Shown one piece after another: positions 19,046 to 63,983 of a stretch of DNA of 64,000 nt. Where the stretch lies: assembly GCF_025698545.1 (NCBI RefSeq), contig NC_068567.1, positions 58,037,371 through 58,101,370 of the forward strand, in the 5' to 3' direction. Position 1 is the stretch's first letter. Every line of letters begins with the position of its first letter. A model generated the notes under the pieces. The model searched no databases and was not told the origin of the DNA. It saw only the letters and a program-made list of their open reading frames with translations. The DNA comes from Gossypium raimondii (Eukaryota > Streptophyta > Magnoliopsida > Malvales > Malvaceae). Position numbers and translations under genes: made by a program.

Positions 19046-19625
19046 TAAAACAATGAAAATGTTTTACATAAAATATTTTACATGCAATATAATTATATTT
19101 TCATATTTAACAAACATGCAATTAAAGGTGTTTCTATTTATCTCACATTGTATCTTGGTATTAAGGGTTCATCACGTATAAGAACAAATATATAGATAAG
19201 ATCGGTGTTAGAGGCAGTAAAATTTATAATATAATATTAGCTCCTCAAAATACAAAATTCATACTTTAATCCTTTTAGAAATTAATAAAATTATATTTTA
19301 GTCCATTAAAAGAAAAAAGACTAGAGAAAATTTTGGCACCACCTCTAAATATAGAAAACCTAAAGCTCTAAAACGGGATAAACTCAAAATGTGTATAAGA
19401 ATCACATGGAACATCAACTTTGGTACCATATAAAGGGGGTATCAAATGAAGATATGAGCGAGCCACTAAGAGTTTCTGGGCCATTGTCCCTCTAAAACAG
19501 TAAAATTTTAATTTAAACCATTTATAATTTATAAAATTTTAAATTAATAACGACAAGACTACATTTTAACTCCTCAGAAAATGATAAAATTACAATTTAA
19601 TCCTTTAAAAATTATAAAGATATAG

Positions 19626-20719
19626 GGGTAATTTACCAATAAAAGCCCTTTTTTTCAAAATTTACCGAAATGGGCCAACTATTTAATTATTTACCAAAAT
19701 GGTCCATTTTCCGCGAAATCGCGTCCACGTCAGCGCGATGTCAGGGTACGCGCCAGGAAATCGCGTCCACGTCAGCGCGACTTGCTGACATGGACGGAAA
19801 TCGCGCCCTAGAGGACGCGATTTGCTGACGTGGCATGAACAATTTATGTTTTTTAGCTTGAAAAACTTTGAAAGGCCATAACTTTTGGCTCGGTTGTCCG
19901 ATTGATACAATTTTTTTTATTTCGAATAACTTTTCGAGATCTACGCGCTGAAAAACTGCTTAGAGATGAATAGGGACTAATTTGTAAAGTATAGTTTGTT
20001 AGTTACGAGTATAGGGACTAAAGTGTAATTATTTCAAAATTAGCATGAAATTTTTGTATTTAAGAATATTTGAATGTTGTGGAAGGATGAAATTGAATTT
20101 GAATTGAAAAACGAAGCTTAGATTTGAAAATATGACTATTTAGGTTTTAGGGACTAAATTGAATAAAATGGAAAATTTTAGGGAACTTCTCAAAAGTGGA
20201 ATGAGCTGACTTATACCTATAACAGGATGATATAAGACAATTCTGTAAAAAAATATCCGGTGTTTACTTCAAATGAATAAGGAAAATAATGATTTGAATG
20301 TTTCAAAATTCAATTTTAAACCGAAAAAATCAAAATTTAGGGGCAAAAAAAGATCTTTTTCAACGAAAACTGCGGCAAACCGCCTTCGGCTGTTTGTCAG
20401 CGCGTAGATGTCGAAAAGTTATTCGAAATAAAAAAATCGTCTCAATCAGACAATCGAGCGAAAAGTTATGGCCTTTCAAAGTTTTCCAATCTTAAAAACA
20501 TCAACTGTTCATCCACGTCAGCAAATCGCGTCCTCGTAGGCGCGATTTGTGTCCACATAAGCAAATCGCGCTGACGTGGACGCGATGTCCTGCCATGTAC
20601 CCTGACATCGCGCTGACGTGGACACGATTTCGCGGAAAATGGCCAATTCCGGTAAATAATAAAAAAATCAGCCCATTTCGGTAAATTTAAAAAAAAGGGC
20701 TTTTTCTGGTAAATTGCCC
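19626..20719. mobile_element. 1.1-kb foldback Mutator-like (MULE) non-autonomous element
   Basis: Flanked by a perfect 9-bp direct repeat AAGATATAG (19617-19625 and 20720-20728), the Mutator signature. The ends are inverted repeats: gggtaatttaccaat at the left and, on the minus strand, gggcaatttaccaga at the right. The arms stay recognisable for about 330 bases each (19626-19965; 20390-20719). Each arm has two copies of a CGCGTCCACGTCAGCGCGA-like block (left arm 19715-19738 and 19757-19780). No transposase is present. The end architecture (taatttacc, aaagccc, aaatgggcc, attatttacc, gtccacgtcagcgcg in that order) is the same as in the 10.4-kb MULE at 49970-60352. Confidence 0.88.
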
Positions 20720-20728
20720 AAGATATAG

Positions 20729-49960: not shown

Positions 49961-49969
49961 AAAAACAAA

Positions 49970-50208
49970 GACTAATTTACCTATAAAGGCCCATTTCCAA
50001 GTATATTAACAGAAATGGGCCAATTTCTGCATTATTTACCAGAAAGGATCGATTTTGGCAAAATGTGTCCACGTAAGAACGTTTTAGGGCGAAATTTCAG
50101 TAAAACGCACTCTTGGGGAAGCAATTTTACCATGTCAGCACAAAACGCACTGACGCGGACGCGCTTTGCTGACGTGGTAAAATCGCTCCCCTAGGGGCGC
50201 GTTTTACT
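49970..50208 (+). repeat. Left terminal inverted repeat of the MULE
   Basis: Pairs with 60101-60352. In order: taatttacc, aaaggcccatttccaagta, gaaatgggccaattt, attatttacc, cgattttggcaaaa, gtccacgta, cgttttaggg, gaaatttca, atgtcagcacaaaacgc, gctgacgtgg, cgctcccc. The right arm has about 15 extra bases from an additional gacgtggacgca block. Confidence 0.93.
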
Positions 50209-50272
50209 CCGTTTTTTCCCCAACGACTATTTAATTTTTTGACCGTTGGGGGGTCCAACGGTCCAAAAAAAA

Positions 50273-50280
50273 GTATAAAA
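50273..50280 (+). promoter_or_regulatory. TATA box of the MULE-borne PMD gene
   Basis: AGTATAAAAACCCC just inside the left inverted repeat, about 200 bases before the lost PMD start. A short direct repeat ('aaatttctc..aagctttc') follows in the presumed leader, 50335-50395. Confidence 0.5.
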
Positions 50281-50472
50281 ACCCCTCCTATTATTTCACA
50301 CAATATTTCTTCAAATTTTGGCCAAAAACTCTTAAATTTCTCGCTAAATTTCTCAAAGCTTTCAAATTTCTCCTTAAATTTCTCAAAGCTCTCATTAATT
50401 AATTATTTCCTTTTTTTTTATAAATTAGTATTATTATTTTATAATTTCAAAAATATTTGATCGTGTTAGCAA

Positions 50473-52443
50473 TAGCCGGGAAATTAATTTGTCTCGATCA
50501 TAAACATATCTCCGTCGAACAAATGAAAATGGTAATGGTTAATTTTAATTTTTGAATATTATTTAATAATTTTTTCATTTATGTAATTTTAATTAATTTG
50601 TATTTTATAATTTTTTATAACATTCTGTAGATCGGGTGTTACAATGTTATATTTGTAATATGTCTGGTCCTTCATCACCGTTGATAGAAATTTATTTGAG
50701 GGAAACGGGTTTTTGGCACGTGGCCACTATAGGCCGAGAGTGCAAGTCGAACTTGAAACTCATCAGCGCGTTAATAGAGAGGTGGAGACCCGAGACACAC
50801 ACATTTCATCTTTCACGCGGAGAGTGTACTATCACTTTGGAGGACATACAGTTACAATTAGGATTGCCGGTGGATGGGTTCGCACTCACCTAATCCATTC
50901 AATTTGCTGATTGGGGAGCCATATGCTACGATCTTTTGGGTGCGATTTCGGATAATATTTACAGAGGTCGGATCAAGATGGGTTGGTTACGAGACACATT
51001 CCCGGAGCCAGGGAATGATTCAACTGAAGTAGAAAGAATACGATATGCTCGGGCATACATCCTTGAGATGATTGGAGGTTATTTAATGTTGGACTTGTCA
51101 TGAAACCTCGTGCATCTGAGATGGCTACTAAAACTCGTTGATTTTAGAGCAGTTGGCGAATTTAGTTGGGGGTCTGCCATGTTGGCAACATTGTACCGGG
51201 AGATGTGTGGGGTGACTCTACCAAATAAAGCCAAAGTCGGAGGTTGTCTATCACTACTACAATCATGGGTGCGGTTTCACTTTCTATTTTTACGTCCTTG
51301 AGTGAATCACCCATATACATTCTCACTCATAACGAGGTAAAGTTTTTATTTGATTTTACAATTATTACATAGATTTAAAATAAAATTGTATGCTAAAAAT
51401 TTATTTAATTAGCTGGAACCATCCGACGAGTTATGTTGGAATACTTACCGCTTTTGAAGATATACAGCTTCTATTAGACCAACAGTCGGAAGCGCAAGTA
51501 AGTATTAAATAATATATATATATACATAAAATAGTCGTTTCATATTTAGTATTTAGTATTATGTATATAACTAATTTTCATCATGTTTATATAGTTTCAA
51601 TGGATACCATACAAGGATTCGATAATTCGGCAATAATTCCGAATGAATTTTTTCAAAATCTTAAAATTTAGCATGTTAAGGTCTCATTGGTCAACTATGC
51701 TATTGTCGAGATGCACCAAACAGATAGAGTGTTGCAACAATTTAGATTCCGAAAATCGATTTCGAAGCACTTGAGGTGCTCAATAAAGAGCATAAAATCT
51801 ACTTATGGCACAACGAATACGAATTGGCCGGTATTATTCTCGAAATATATCAAAATTTGGGAAAATTAGTATGATCATATACCTACTACGAATCGATCAT
51901 CGTTCCAGAGTTAGTGTGCACTCCAGATTACATGTCATAGTTTAGGATCCCTGACAAGCCATATTTGCTGCTGGAAAAACAGAGGTGTCGAGAAATCCGT
52001 GTCGAAAGAGAACGACAGGGCCCTTTAAATTCAATGAGAAATGATGACGACACGGGCCTATCGACAATGCCCACACAATCACCGGGCCCAATGCCTCAAC
52101 CGATGACACCCACACCACAGCCCCTTTAGATTATGCCAGATGCGTATCATAGCCCTTATATGTATCTTAACACTTATATGTTTCCTTTTCCCAGTCCTAT
52201 TCCAGGCTGGAATGCATGGCCCGGTGCATCTCTTTTCCCGATAACTCCGACTCAATCGATGATATATAGGCTACCGTCGTCGAAGGGATTACACGAGGCA
52301 TCGTTGGGGAGCTCATCTCATTACCATTCCTCATCGCCTTATGGGATTCAAACACCTCCGTCGTGGGTGATACAAACACCTTCAAATTCTTTATTCTATC
52401 AAGGTGGGTCATCCTCCCAACACCCACAACCGGAGCAACCATA
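50473..52443 (+). pseudogene. Plant mobile domain (PMD/MAIN-like) gene remnant inside the MULE
   Basis: Reads in pieces as a PMD protein. A short first exon (AGKLICLDHKHISVEQMKM) has ATA where ATG is expected. Then [38 protein letters not shown] and [18 protein letters not shown]; after a stop/frameshift, DWGAICYDLLGAI, MGWLRDTFPEP and YILEMIGGYLMLDLS-stop-NLVHLRWLLKL, SWGSAMLATLYREMCG; then a decayed WNHPTSYVG exon. Finally a Pro/Ser/Gln-rich tail with MFPFPSPIPGWNAWPGAS and YQGGSSSQHPQP. Stops occur in nearly every exon. PMD proteins (MAIN, MAIL1) act in genome stability/silencing in Arabidopsis and are known to be linked to transposons. This copy cannot make a full protein. Confidence 0.85.
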
Positions 52444-52839
52444 ACCCCGATCAGAGCAACCATAACCCCCGCCAAAAGCTGAACCAAAAAAGAATCCAGC
52501 TCGTAATCGTCGATCACCCCCATGTGGCATTGATTCCGACTGGCACATACATTGATTTTTTTAATATATTTGTACAAACTATTTTTATATTATTTCATTT
52601 AATAAAATAAAAGTTTTTTTAATATTTTAATAGTAAAATATTTTTATATTTTTAATAAAATAGAGGTTCTTTTGAATAAGGTAACAGAAATAATGCAATA
52701 TAGTTTCATTACAACAATTATCAACTATTTCGATTTGGACATGATTGAATTGTATGACCTGGGTTCCTACACCATCCGCACAACTTCTATTGATTCATTT
52801 TTTCCCGGATATTCATATTATTACGTATTCTACTCGAGC

Positions 52840-55800
52840 ATGGTCGACCTTTTAAACGATTTAAATGATTTAAACGAAGATTGGTAATGAGATGAGCCAC
52901 TTACGAAGTAAGCGATATAGACAGCCACTTACGTTCATCTAGGATCGGTGGAAATACATATCTCTACACATTGTACATGTATTCTATTTTGTCCACTTCC
53001 TCGACATATCTCATGGGATCCAAATGGAGATTCTAACAAGTTGCAGTTGCATGAGCACATGGATTACGAAGTGCGTTAAATATCCCACAGTCGCAAGTTT
53101 TATTTTTCAGGTGTACACAATATTGCCCACCGATAATACATTGGTTCGGTCTATCAAACTCCGTTACACGAAACCATAAATTGTCGTGATTATGACACAC
53201 TATGTGCATAGTATTGGCCCGCGCTTTCACCTTGTTAATTTCTTGCAATACCTTCTAGAACCATACATGGCTTCCCTGCATTTGGCCTTTATAACTCGCT
53301 GCTTACTTTGGAAATAATGCCGCCAAACAAAAATATATCTCTCGCACAATCGAGGTTATCGACAAATGACGTGTTCCTGTTAGAACAAAATTTATGCATT
53401 CAGTCAGGTTCGTGGTTATATAACCATATCGTAGGTCGCTGGCCTGTCATATGCTTGTGTCCACTGTTTGAAAGGTACATTACAGAGGTAGTCTGCGCTT
53501 TGATCGTTAACTGAACGCAAAATCCCCAACATATCATGAAAATGGTCTTTATTGATCTCGTACCCTACCAATATAAGTAGATAGCGAAAATTACATACTA
53601 CTATTCCTGTAACAGCCCAATTTTCAGTAGTGTCAGAACAATGATTTGAGATCACTAAATTCGATGAAAAAGTTAGAAATATTTTTGAATCAGTGAATTT
53701 TGTGATTTAAAAGAAATTATTAGGTAAATTGGGTCAAAAACGAGGTATCGAGACCTCGATATCATAAACTGAGTCGTAAATATTTTTATAAATATTTACA
53801 GAGTGTCAATAGGATAATATTAAAGTTTCGTTAAGAAATTTTAACGTTTCGATAGTTAATTATGAAAAGGATTAAATTGCAATAGGGATAAAAGTTTAAT
53901 TATAGATTAAAGAAAAGTTAAAAGGACCAAATAGGCAATTATGCCTTTTTCTAAAGTTGAGCCGGCATAAGTATAAAAATCTGAGATTTTTATGTGTTAA
54001 AAAAATATTATTATATTATAGTAATGATTATGTTTTTATATTATATTATTATTAATATATTATATTATATTTTATATATATATATCAAAAGAAAGAATAG
54101 AAATGAGAAAGAAAGAAACAGAGAGCAAAACGAAACAGAGAAGGGAGAAAGAAGAAAAAGAAAGAGAGCGACGGTTCAGGGGTTTCAAAACTTCTAAATT
54201 CAATTGGTAAGTTAATTTAGTCCCTTTTTCTTATGGTTTTGATATTTTTGGAATCCTAGAACAAAATACTACTTGATTTAAGTTGAAATTTTGGAAGTTA
54301 GTAAATTTTTAGATGTTGTTCATGTTGAATTAATTGATGAATTAGAGGTTAAAATGATTGAATTTTAAGTTAGAAGTTAGTAGAAGGTTGATTTGTAAAA
54401 TAAAACATAAGTTTTGAATTAATAGGGACTAAATTGAGAGAATTTCGAAATTAGGGATTTATGATGAAAATGAAGAATTAAAATGAGTATATAGTGAGAA
54501 TTAAGAGAGAATATGGAGTTAAATTAGGAAAAATAAAATTAGTATTGATAAGGGATTAAATTAGAGTTTATGTAAAGTTTAGGTATAAATGGAAATATTT
54601 TAATGGAATTGTGTATTAATAATTTTTAATTGTTTAATTACGTAGCTAATGTCGTGCAAGAGTCATTGTCCGAGAAATGAAAGGAGAAGGTGGACAAGGA
54701 TTGACTCGAGAGAAATTTCGGTTAGTATTACTATAATTCAAATTTAATTATTAATTGTTAAAATTTAAATTAATATACATGATAAGCAAATTGAGGTAAG
54801 AATCATGATTGAATTAAATGAAAATACGTATTGGTATTGAAATTATAAATAGCAATTGTTGAATTTTGAATAATATGTTTAGTAAATAAAAATAAGGTGA
54901 ATATTGATATTGAATTGTATGTGAATTGAATGGAAATTACTAGTGATATGATTTGAATTAAAAGAATTAATGTGATATTGAATTGTATGTTGATTGAAAA
55001 GTAATTAGTGATTTGAATTTCATTAAATAAATAAATAAATAAAATATAAAATATGAATTGAATAAAAGTGAATTAAAATATGAAAAGTGTGAATACATGA
55101 ATCAAGTATGATTACATGTGAATGTCGGAATATCTATTGGTAGATTAGAAAGTGGAAAGTAAATTTGAATTGAAATGTGATTATTGAATAGAAATTGAAA
55201 TGGTTTGAATTGAATTATTGAATTGAATGGAATATTGAAATTGGTGATTGATATGGATTTTATTAGAATTGAAATTGAGAATGTGGAGATTGATATGTGA
55301 AACCGATCTTCGAATCAATTATGGAATACTTAATATTGTTATGTGTCTTGCATTGAACTGTGAAAATCTCAAGCAATGAATTACTGCAATCTTGTGAAAC
55401 CGATTGGAATAATGAATTTATAATTGATACTGAACTAATATGGAAATTTTACTGGAAAGTAAATTAAATACCCTTTTAACTAGTCGGGCTAGTCGGATAT
55501 AGTTGGCATGCCATAGGATATGGAAGAGTACGGGTTATTGCCGACTTCATCGATCGTGCACTTATGTGCCGACTCATCATTATCATATCATTATTCGATT
55601 CGATACTTTGTGTGTCGAATATTATTATTATTCTTTATTCATGATTCAGCACTTTGTGTGTTGAATCTTTATCTTATTCTTATCACTATCCGTTCTTGTT
55701 CTTGATCGGTACTATGTACAGTATTAGGCACTATGTGCCGTATTGTGTGATTGGTTGGAATCTGTATCCGTCAAAGTCCGAGTCAAGTTAATAGGGTAAA

Positions 55801-58800
55801 TGAATAATTTTGATAATATAAATTTTATTGCATGATCTTGAATATGAATTGAAATAAGACATTAAATTGAGGTATTGAATGAAATGTATGAACCATGGGT
55901 TCAAGAAATAGATAATGATATAGTTCATGAAATAGTTTTGGTAGTATGAGATGATGTAAAAATATAAGCAAAGAGAAGCAAACTGAAATAGCCATTGTTG
56001 AGAAATGAGAAATGAAAAATGAAAAAAAATGATTTGAAATAGTGAAATAATATGTGAATTTAATTGAATACAAGTTATTGAAATTTATTTATGGATTTAA
56101 TGTATAAATTGAGTGTTAGAAGATTATAAGTGTAAATTGATTATAAATGAACGAATCGAACTGAAAAATAGTTGTTATTATTATTGTTGTTGAAACAAGT
56201 TGATTTAATATATTAAATGTTTATTAAAAGATTAAAAGTATAAATTGAATATAAATAGAAATGATAATGAATGAGTTGATAAATTGATTGGATTTGTATG
56301 AACTGGAATGAGTTATTAGAATGAGATGTGGAAAAATCTAATAAATTTTTTTATAGTGAAATAAGTTCTGAATACACTTAAATATAAGACTGAAATATTG
56401 CTTATTGTTATTAATGATCAAGTTGATTTAAAGTATGGGATAATTAATGAATAATTGTAGACATAAATTAAATGTATATAATTTATCCATTAATGTTATT
56501 AATTTGAATTATGGTAATACCACTGAGTATTCCCATACTCAGCGTACGGTTGTTTCCGTGCGCAGGTTAGTAGGAAGCCAGTGCTCGGTCCAGCATCCAG
56601 AGTAATCCCGACCTCAGAGAAATTTTGGTGATGTACTTTTGTTTTGATAATATGGCATGTACCTAAGTGATATATAGGTTAAGTATAAGAGTTTTGTGAT
56701 TGTGGTTTTAGAACGATGTTTAAATTGGTTATAAGTATGAAATGGAACTAATATGACATATTTGATTAAAGTATGCTATGTCTGTTATTTATTTGTGAAT
56801 TAGTTATAAGTTATCCAATATGTCCGGTAATACTCTATAACCCTGTTCCGGTGACGGTTTGGGGTTAGGGGGTGTTACAATTCCATTCAGAATAAATTGA
56901 ATATTACAAACGAAATTATATTAATAGAGATTAAATACCCATGTTGGTCACTTGTTGTCGTTTAGTGGTAGACTAATATTGCCCGTAGTAGTTGGATGCA
57001 ACGTGCCTTAGACAATACCAATGGTGTGTGTAATCCTATAGGCTTCCCTGTCGCTCAATTGGGACTAGTATTCCAATGTCCCGGTCCGATATAACGTAGA
57101 TATCAGGTTGGGGGCATACATGTCTTCTTAACCTAGAAAGAAAGAAATTCCAATCATCACCTGACTCCGTCAGTGTTATTGCAAGCTCAATTGGAAGGAT
57201 TCTCTCACTGCTACCTTGTGTCACAGCTAGCAATAGTTGATGGGTATATCTACCATACATAAAGGTACCATCAATTTATACCAATGGCTTGCAGTACACA
57301 AATGCGTCTCGACATTGCTTAAAGCTCCAGAACAAACGCTTTGACACTTGGCATCCACGGAGCAATCGATCATTGTAGTACGTAGAGACCGTTTCAAGGT
57401 CTATTATGCAACCTGAAACGCACCTCTCCAGCACCTGACACCACTGCCACACCTCATTATATGAAGCGTTTCACCCACTATACATCTTTTCCAATGCCTT
57501 CTACTTAGCTATCCAAGCCTTGCGGTAAGAGGGCGTGTACCTCAATTGGCTATGAATATTGGCAATTAAGATCGACACAGAAGTCTTGGGATCCGCCTTC
57601 AACATCGATAGTATTAATCTAACTATCATACCTGAATCCATCTTAGAATGATCTTGTGAAACACCTGTCAACGAAGTACGTTAAATAATGCAACATTAAG
57701 TAATAACGTTATTATTCAAAAACCCTAAACACCAGTGATACTGTACCGACAACACAAGTATGTGAACCTTTATACTTTTTTTATCTTCCATGAGCCTATC
57801 TTTTTCCTAAAAGAAGCTATAATTTTCCATGAACATGTATCATCTTGCACTGCACACTTGGCCTCGAACTTCTCGGATTTGGATTTAACCACGTTGTAGT
57901 TAACCTTGTGATTGATGCTATGTTATTTCAATGCACCAAGAAAACTATCCTTACTGGAAAACTCCTTACCAACTTCCAATTCACCCGAATCTAATGACGA
58001 ACTTGTACAGTCACGCCTTCTGTGTGGTAGATCTAGAAACTCCAACGCATCATTTACCGATATATCGATATTATACATGTGGGTTGGAGGCGAGTACACC
58101 TTGAATCGCAGATTTTCTTTATCTAAACCCTTTTCAACGTATTCAGGTTCGGATGGAACAGGCTTCGATTCAAAAAATAATACAACTTTTGCACCATCGA
58201 GGCCGGGCTCTCGAGGTGGATCCACATCGGACTCATCATCCAACTCAGCATCATTTGTAACGTATGAGGTCCCCTCGTCGGTGGACGTCGTAGAGAGTAC
58301 ATCATCCCTTCTTGTGGACGTTTTGTAATGTCCCCAATCAGATGTGGATTGCCAACCACTAGAAGTTGATGTCACTCCCGAATACGTATTTCCAGTATTG
58401 AACATCGATCCACCGATGTGTATGTCCTATCCACTAACTGAGTATTGTGTAGGAGTTGTGTATTTCATACTACCACCAAATACGGGAGCTTTCGTGTTTT
58501 GCCTCCCACTAACGGAGTGTCGGGTAGGGGTCGTGTATTCCTCTCGAACAGCAGTAGATGTTGAAGTCGCAAATGTTTCATTTGGCGATGAAAATTGTAC
58601 ATATAACTCATGATAGGGTGATCCACTAACGAGAAGAATCTGCACTATCGCCTCAAAGCTACGACCACATTTGATATCAAATGAGTCATATGTCACGAGA
58701 TCAATCGAAGCACAAAATCGATACTTAATAGAAGAAACCCTTATTGGCGTCGTTTCGAAGATTTTGCGCATAATTCTTTTACGAAAATTTGTCAAATTTA

Positions 58801-58918
58801 TAGTCTGGTTAAAAACCAGTCGCATTGTGTTCTCTGATAAAAAAACATCACCGTTCTCGGTGTCACGGACCTTACCATCGTAGTAAATAATAGCACTAAT
58901 ATGTTCACTTATCTTCAA
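52840..58918 (-). pseudogene. MURA-type MULE transposase, broken and interrupted by an LTR
   Basis: Minus-strand reading from 58918. The N-terminal PB1-like MuDR domain (MKISEHISAIIYYDGKV...) runs to SVSG at 58427, where TAG stands in frame. The frame continues to 57923 with an acidic linker and the start of the DNA-binding part (KDSFLGALK). Several stops follow, then the DDE core: IDGTFMYGRYTHQLLLAVTQ (first Asp) and VISDRDIGILVPIERQG (second Asp) at 57260-57036. After the LTR (53608-56879) it resumes as YEINKDHFHDMLGILRSVN, AEC-side sequence and a SWIM zinc finger CDCGIFNALRNPCAH near 53060, then LDPMRYVEEVDKIEYMYNV-stop-RYVFPPILDERKW. At least ten in-frame stops/frameshifts: no activity is possible. 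Confidence 0.9.
53608..56879. mobile_element. Solo LTR (3,272 bp) inserted in the MULE transposase
   Basis: Begins TGTAACAGCCC, ends GGGGGTGTTACA (TGTAACA/TGTTACA perfect inverted ends), with a perfect 5-bp duplication ATTCC at 53603-53607 and 56880-56884. No retroelement protein is encoded and no primer-binding/polypurine pair is inside, so it is one LTR left by recombination. Length and ends resemble Del/Tekay-type gypsy LTRs; that assignment is by style. 55490-55760 carries a row of short hairpins (GGCATGCC, GCAC-ttat-GTGC, GTAC-tat-GTAC, GGCAC-tat-GTGCC). Confidence 0.88.
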
Positions 58919-59012
58919 TTTTTATTCTGCTTAGCCTCTCTAATTTTTCTTACAATAACTTATGCAACCTGAGAATGAAATTTGACTCATTTATAGCCTA
59001 AGGCGAAACATG

Positions 59013-59790
59013 AACTACTGTAGAAAAATAGCTTCAACGTAGGAGCTTTTTTCATCAATTTTGCTGATAGTGCATCCTGCTTGAAGCGTTTTTGACACTA
59101 TTTGTTCATAACCGTCTTCTCAAAATTATTTTTTCAGGAACTACTGTAGAAAAATAGAGTCAACGTAGGAGCTTTTTTCATCAATTTTGCTGATAGTGCA
59201 TCCTGCTTGAAGCGTTTTTGACACTATTTGTTCATAACCGTCTTCTCAAAATTATTTTTTCAGGAACTACTGTAGAAAAAGAGCGTCAACGTAGGAGCTT
59301 TTTTCATCAATTTTGCTGACAGTGCATCCTGCTTGAAGCGTTTTTGACACTATTTGTTCATAACCGTCTTCTCAAAATTATTTTTTCAGGAACTACTGTA
59401 GAAAAAGAGCGTCCACGTGGAAGCTTTTTTCAGTAATTTTGCTGACAGTGCATCCTCCTTGAAGCTTTTTTGACACTATTTATTCAGAACTGTCTTCTCA
59501 AAATTATTTTTTCAAGAACTACTGTAGAAAAAGAGCGTCCACATGGGAGCTTTTTTCAGTAATTTTGCTGACAATGCATCCTGCTTGAAGCGTTTTTGAC
59601 ACTATTTGTTCAGAAACGTCTTTTCAAAATTATTTTTTCATGAACCACTGTAGAAAAAGAGCGTCCACGTGGGAGCTTTTTCCAGTAATTTTGCTGACAG
59701 TGCATCCTACTTGAAGCGTTTTTGACACTATTTGTTCAGAACCGTATTCTCAAAATTATTTTTTAGGAACTACTGTAGAAAAAAAAATAA
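59013..59790. repeat. 126-bp tandem repeat, six full copies and a partial
   Basis: AACTACTGTAGAAAAA recurs at 59013, 59139, 59265, 59391, 59517, 59643 (one base changed) and 59768, so spacing is 126 bases five times, then 125. Units also share gtgcatcctgcttgaagcg, gacactatttgttca and cttctcaaaattatttttt. Lies between the transposase start and the right inverted repeat. Confidence 0.95.
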
Positions 59791-59809
59791 AATCCTTCTT
59801 GTCAATAAT

Positions 59810-60060
59810 ATTTCCCTAAACCCTAAACCTAAACACAATATTATTTTTAAAAAAAACTATATCTTAATTTAATTAAATTTCTTAAAAACACTAAACCCTA
59901 ATTAAATTTATTTATTTAAAACCCTTAACCCTAATTTAATTAATTTTTTAAAAAGAATACTAAATCTTGATTTATTTTTTAAAATTCATAAAACCTAGAA
60001 CCCTCAATTATTTTAACAAAACCCTAACCCTAAAAACCCTAAACCAAAAAATCCTAGGGA
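59810..60060 (+). repeat. Telomere-like CCCTAAA/ACCCTAA interspersed tract
   Basis: Repeated but irregular ccctaaaccctaaacc, aaaccctaatt, ttaaccctaattt and aaccctaaccctaaaaacc words in AT-rich DNA. Not a true telomere; an internal low-complexity part of the MULE. Confidence 0.8.
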
Positions 60061-60100
60061 CTAAACATGCAAAAAGCTCTAACCTAAAAAAAAACACAAA

Positions 60101-60352
60101 GCAAAACGCACCCCTGGGGGAGCGATTTTGCCACGTTAGTAAAGCGCGTCCATGTCAGTGCGTCCACGTCAGCGCGTTTTGTGCTGACATGGCAAAATCA
60201 CTCCCTTAAGGGCACGTTTTGTTGAAATTTCACCCTAAAACACTCCTACGTGGACGAGTTTTGCCAAAATCGGCATTTTTCGGTAAATAATACAAAAATT
60301 GGCCCATTTCCATAAATATACTTGGAAATGGGCCTTTATAGGTAAATTAGTC
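60101..60352 (-). repeat. Right terminal inverted repeat of the MULE
   Basis: Complement of 49970-50208 with scattered substitutions and one extra block. Its outer end lies 312 bases from the start codon of the succinyl-CoA ligase gene. Confidence 0.93.
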
Positions 60353-60664
60353 TAATACAAAATTTCTTTTAAATATTTTTATTAAAAAATGCTATCTCCC
60401 CTTGGATCAACGAACCGGAGTTTAGGAACTTAGGTTGATAGCCCAATTTAGATCCAAAACATGGCCCATAAAAGTTCAAAAAAAAAAAAAAAGTAAAGGA
60501 AAAATAGTTTGCAAAGGAAAAGAAAATGGAAAAAAGGGGAAGCTGACCAAAATAGAGGGGGGCTTTGGCTTTTGTACGCAATAATTTGGTGGAGACTGCA
60601 TTTTTTTGGTATCTGCAGCGAAAGAGGCAAGGGGAGATCCGATACTGAATCAACAGCAACAGCA

Positions 60665-63983
<3,319 letters not shown>

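Follow-up and report, generated by a model that had tools for sequence, protein, structure and literature searches.

Why should a transposon carry a plant mobile domain (PMD) gene next to its own transposase gene? The question is raised by a Mutator-like element (MULE) at positions 49970-60352 of a 64,000-nucleotide stretch of the Gossypium raimondii genome (contig NC_068567.1, positions 58,037,371 to 58,101,370; referred to here as the window), in which inverted ends of about 250 bp enclose a PMD gene on the forward strand and a MURA transposase gene on the reverse strand. In Arabidopsis the PMD proteins MAIN and MAIL1 contribute to the silencing of transposons (PMC5418596, PMC9899485), and it is this silencing-related domain that here also rides on a transposon. 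We assign a probability of roughly 0.6 to the reading that the window holds a dead copy of a two-gene MULE family, whose PMD gene (MAIN/MAIL-type, PMD-C-like) lies antisense and tail to tail with the transposase gene, has been kept by selection and would be needed by the element.

This architecture, proposed in the original prediction from the letters alone, is borne out by the ends and by the domains. The arms of the terminal inverted repeat (TIR) are complementary over 197 nt at 84% and a further 73 nt at 85%, with a second alignment of 262 columns at 79%, giving a range by stretch of 79-85%, and both ends begin GACTAATTTACC. The flanking 9-bp sequences, aaaaacaaa and taatacaaa, form an imperfect target duplication; an exact 9/9 duplication, GAAAGAAAC, surrounds the related element L016, and none was found when looked for at L029. 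A TIR with a 9-10-bp target duplication, as expected of MULEs with an antisense PMD, is thus present. PF10536 is matched by three of the four forward-strand pieces scanned (7.9e-18, 1e-12 and 2.3e-4, the last below the cut-off), with no Pfam match in the fourth (50894-51103). On the reverse strand there are matches to PF10551 (MULE) at 57036-57275 (1.2e-6) and to PF04434 (SWIM) at 53033-53254 (5.9e-4, just over its own cut-off), the four other pieces of the six scanned having no Pfam match. The two genes are therefore tail to tail.

The same arrangement recurs elsewhere in the genome to which the window belongs (750.8 Mb, 281 contigs). From the 1992 first-look candidates of a DNA query combining TIR and PMD, 40 were scored and 30 fetched (subfamily A, L001-L030, L001 being the window copy), and at 27 of these 30 places MURA follows the PMD gene in the window orientation, antisense to it, if in some cases only as fragments (L016, for example). 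The exceptions are L014 and L029, which have a PMD between ends without MURA and are probably internally deleted derivatives, and L017, where the PMD adjoins an inverted neighbouring element. Searching from the other side, with MURA as query, turned up 1440 candidates; of the 40 that were scored, eight adjoin known PMD places by coordinates (one being the window), and among the first 12 of the remaining 32, inspection of 700 bases at the expected position recovered a PMD in 12 of 12, the one at L070 covering only 131 bases. A PMD is thus present at all 20 of the MURA places checked, out of 40 scored. These counts (27/30 and 20/20) rule out a one-off capture, and they uphold the earlier view of a two-gene element with the same ends and gene order; related elements lacking the PMD, which would have spoken for a random capture, were looked for at these MURA places and did not appear. 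Nor is the element a Pack-MULE, in which a piece of a host gene lies between TIRs with no transposase, since MURA is found in the window and at 27 of the 30 loci.

More distant relatives were recovered in a genome search with PF10536 (6035 first-look candidates, 117 scored, 200 matches; L031-L060 fetched). Eighteen loci form subfamily B, with a longest match of 71-79% to the window PMD; 14 of these match the window ends, and seven have MURA within the short flank. Further off are groups C (L055, extended as L061, and L056), C2 (L047, L059 and L060), D (L040) and E (L057). L061 has an open PMD exon 1 on the forward strand and a MuDR DNA-binding domain on the reverse strand, tail to tail, and in L047 PMD and SWIM domains lie on opposite strands; translated MURA matches were obtained in L055 (4.8e-18), L056 (3.5e-7) and L060 (5.9e-5), with none in L059 and no MURA seen within the short flank in groups D and E. 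All three expected transposase domains are found in the family, MULE and SWIM in the window itself, SWIM also in L047, and DBD_Tnp_Mut in the relatives L052 and L061; three other transposase pieces had no domain match. L061 alone has no long inverted repeat. A stretch upstream of its MURA does match, in inverted orientation, stretches upstream of the PMD in L047, L055 and L056 (65-103 columns, 74-79%), a weak indication of inverted ends. A candidate intronless PMD family, suggested by long frames, was dropped when the frame-length figures disagreed with the open reading frames of L059. Among the copies examined, the PMD/MURA pairing is thus the usual make-up, and it recurs in further diverged groups.

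Selection on the PMD gene and its origin

If the PMD is of use to the element, it should bear traces of selection dating from the time it was carried by the element. We tested this on PMD exon 1 (226 codons, 30 A copies and 18 B copies, L040 being left out), counting as near-fixed those A/B differences present in at least 70% of copies on each side. The near-fixed differences comprise 37.5 replacement and 51.5 silent changes, against 210 and 72 for singletons within A (Fisher p 4e-8), the latter being a picture of decay after insertion. The contrast persists with transversions only (18:15 fixed versus 126:38 singletons, p 0.016). Among the five alternative reading frames, a deficit of replacements appears only in the mirror frame, with which the third position is shared, and not in the remaining four. 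Variants common to at least four A copies stand at 93:51 (p 0.04 versus singletons), and the corresponding transversions (5:0) are not significant.

Ratios of replacement to silent substitution rates (dN/dS, by NG86, on sequences whose open frame runs to 200 amino acids or more) lie below 1, as had been predicted. They are 0.11-0.14 between C and C2 at a dS of 1.3-1.8, 0.23-0.40 between A and B, and 0.14-0.18 between A and D at near-saturated dS; within groups they are 0.22-0.66 (B), 0.34 (A), 0.29 (C2) and 0.36 (C). Most other between-group pairs are uninformative through saturation of silent sites. Intact copies had also been expected, and copies with an open exon-1 frame do exist, exon 1 alone having been looked at. 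With related ends, MURA and the gene order common to A and B, both genes were most likely present in their common ancestor, and this shared ancestry together with the substitution counts argues that the PMD was maintained while travelling on the element. The alignments show, as far as exon 1 can speak, that purifying selection preserved the PMD reading frame during the divergence of the elements.

Where the gene came from is less clear-cut. We take L031-L034 to be host PMD-B genes and L035 a host PMD-C gene, labels that derive from characteristic motifs; a tree with the MULE PMDs supports this separation for L031-L033 (PMD-B-like) and L035 (PMD-C-like), and L034 has stops. The MULE PMDs and L035 split from the three PMD-B-type genes with 100/100 support, placing the transposon genes nearer to the MAIN/MAIL type in a tree that holds one PMD-C-type host gene. 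L035 is 32-43% identical to the MULE PMDs over the exon-1 region. By splice sites read by eye, A, C and L035 all have an intron in front of (V/F)xW (comparing L061 1590-1860 with L035 2031-2620); an R|W intron is common to the MULE PMDs of A and C and missing from L035, whose intron after ..LLQ is in turn absent from the MULE PMDs. This pattern fits a genic PMD having been captured at the DNA level, in one event or two. Two separate host captures, one for A/B/D and one for C/E, would account for the best tree, in which L035 stands beside C/E (90/84); a single MULE clade is not rejected, however, by the approximately unbiased test (p 0.214), A and C share the R|W intron that L035 lacks, and L035 is both a long branch and the sole host PMD-C gene examined. 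We regard two captures as possible, with the odds nonetheless favouring one.

Possible functions of the PMD gene

Granted that the element needs its PMD gene, what might the gene do? Our tentative leaning, held at a little under even odds, is that the PMD helps the element to escape or reset host silencing, as VANC does for VANDAL elements. We lean this way because Ty3/Gypsy retrotransposons carry PMDs too (PMC5418596), because the PMD weakly matches DUF1985, marked as a domain of the VANC anti-silencing proteins (PMC5735166, Fig. 5 legend), and because a tandem repeat upstream of the transposase parallels the tandem repeats upstream of VANA21 in VANDAL21 (PMC5735166). The DUF1985 match is seen at E<=1 with eight of nine PMD exon-1 proteins, among them the frame at 882-1601 of L061 (from 9.5e-5 at best to 0.091 for the weakest printed), and the six printed rows concern the same stretch, residues 134-198 against model positions 74-140. 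Four of the nine also have a sub-threshold match to DUF7745.

Several observations count against this leaning and the reading on which it builds. The DUF1985 scores printed are all under the Pfam cut-off (best 22.8 bits versus 35.1), so that the second gene is not one with DUF1985 over cut-off as in VANDAL elements with VANC; L040, one of the nine proteins, has no DUF1985 match; the host gene L035 does have one (0.0016); and a search for DUF1985 genes in the cotton genome itself gave no match at threshold (389 candidates, 150 scored, from which absence is not proven). The Arabidopsis relatives of L035 act for silencing. The tandem repeat is no proof of binding, and the loci used were the top-scoring ones, not a random sample.

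A stronger version of the idea would make the PMD of MULEs a distant relative of VANC DUF1985 with the same job, its product recognising the element's own tandem repeats upstream of MURA and lifting silencing. We think this improbable on the present similarities. If true, it would join two separately studied transposon proteins, and the MULE anti-silencing factors and the host MAIN/MAIL silencing factors would represent opposite faces of a single ancient domain family. The sub-threshold PMD-DUF1985 match and the 126-bp tandem repeat upstream of MURA are new leads in this direction. Relatives of PMD exon 1 were not found in viral contigs in one scan, and comparison with solved structures gave no meaningful match (best E 0.29).

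The most serious competitor to a silencing role is that the PMD helps transposition itself, in the manner of mudrB of MuDR, perhaps by assisting integration or entry into the nucleus. The second gene of MuDR is apparently required for integration (PMC6446971), and the linkage of PMD to MURA and the selection on it fit such a role equally well. Since Ty3/Gypsy retrotransposons use other enzymes, however, a transposase-specific role fails to explain the PMDs that they carry (PMC5418596), and the similarity to DUF1985, though weak, points towards VANC; we consider a pure helper unlikely, if well worth keeping in mind. Far less probable still is that a host PMD was captured once and hitch-hikes as a transduplicate of no use to the element, for while MULEs are known to capture pieces of host genes (PMC6446971) and PMD elements without MURA exist (L014, L029), such a passenger is disfavoured by the purifying selection between subfamilies and by the retention of the PMD at all 20 MURA places checked, and the related ends, MURA and gene order of A and B speak against separate captures from a selected host gene.

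Anatomy of the window copy

The features of the window element are collected in Table 1. Neither gene is intact: three in-frame stops interrupt PMD exon 1, a frameshift and stops disrupt exon 3, and MURA carries stops, frameshifts and a nested insertion. The description of "both copies" as dead thus holds for the two genes, but no second PMD or MURA copy was found in the window by blastn or tblastx (tblastx matches listed to subject position 59013), the only related element seen being a small one of 1.09 kb. This is a 1094-bp MULE-like element at 19626-20719, whose ends are 73-76% alike to those of the main element and which is flanked by an exact 9-bp duplication, AAGATATAG (19617-19625 and 20720-20728).

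Table 1. Features of the Mutator-like element in the window.
Feature	Position	Strand	Remarks
Left target-site duplication	49961-49969		Imperfect, 7/9 with 60353-60361; read by eye
Left terminal inverted repeat	49970-50217	+	Self-comparison; recurs at other copies
TATA-like string TATAAAAA	50274-50284	+	Upstream of PMD; weakly supported
PMD (PF10536) pseudogene	50660-52555	+	Exons 50660-51336, 51413-51497, 51595-52555
MURA-type transposase pseudogene	52860-58921	-	MULE and SWIM domains; split by insertion; limits approximate
Nested insertion, solo-LTR-like (LTR, long terminal repeat)	53608-56879		3272 bp, TG..CA ends, ATTCC duplication
126-bp tandem repeat, about six copies	59009-59812		Upstream of transposase; units also at other family copies
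Right terminal inverted repeat	60091-60352	-	Self-comparison
Right target-site duplication	60353-60361		Read by eye

The PMD exon limits follow from GT..AG sites and open frames. The PMD had been credited with a TATA box of its own, and the string is indeed present, but the exact motif TATAAA[AT]A occurs within 160 bases of the start of the upstream match at only eight of the 30 subfamily A loci. The insertion in the transposase gene looks like a solo LTR and contains no stop-to-stop frame of more than 98 amino acids. Units of the 126-bp repeat recur in L014, L015, L016 and L030 and in the inverted neighbour in L017, and the repeat may be a binding region for a protein of the element. Downstream of the right end, about 310 bases away, is the start codon (ATG at 60665) of a gene that encodes a CoA-binding domain (PF02629, 1.6e-4), presumably that of a succinate-CoA ligase alpha subunit; such a promoter-side position is typical of MULEs.

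Comparison with known systems

Neither the arrangement nor the functional idea is without precedent. The antisense PMD-MURA architecture is already in print (Dupeyron 2019, PMC6446971), and the anti-silencing idea was raised by Ikeda 2017 (PMC5418596), where PMD-C domains on MULEs are described as captured host genes and a role against silencing is speculated upon; a 2021 review (PMC8616336) repeats the counter-silencing idea. Within the library searched, that review was the only source to combine plant mobile domain, purifying selection and transposase, and no paper among the 18 listed joined DUF1985 and the plant mobile domain. Of the papers that link cotton with PMD or the names under which it is annotated, three listed have titles on other subjects, and among 20 shown of 194 one (PMC4591483) contains the phrase "phosphatase 7 long form".

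The PMD-C transposons of Ikeda 2017 (PMC5418596) differ from ours, being, as described there, transposase fusions from grasses and Amborella, whereas the cotton PMD is a separate antisense gene. The host MAIN/MAIL-like gene L035 has the same domain and one intron position in common with the MULE PMDs, and differs from them in the R|W and ..LLQ introns. According to the relevant part of Nicolau 2020 (PMC7156037), eudicots contain "mainly genic PMD-C", a statement that the present genome qualifies if MULE PMDs are counted as PMD-C.

VANDAL elements with VANC (PMC5735166) are likewise MULEs with a further protein gene, and the weak DUF1985 match and the tandem repeats upstream of the transposase are points of likeness in what that paper presents; they differ in that our element has no DUF1985 match over the cut-off and that an anti-silencing function of its PMD is putative. 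Closest are the MUDR group (group 50) and MUDRAVI2 of Dupeyron 2019 (PMC6446971), likewise plant MULEs with SWIM, 9-10-bp duplications and TIRs of 30-320 bp, to which we liken the window element by domains, ends and gene order and not by a transposase tree. For the MUDR group that paper lists "PMD in antisense for most of them", for MUDRAVI2 a PMD "in most, often antisense", and for VANDAL "PMD and/or DUF in half the members". In these passages the presence of the PMD is tabulated without copy number, linkage count or selection test (PMC6446971); linkage counts and a selection test are given here. Evidence that selection preserved a transposon PMD, in a family some of whose copies retain an open exon 1, brings the published anti-silencing idea within reach of experiment.

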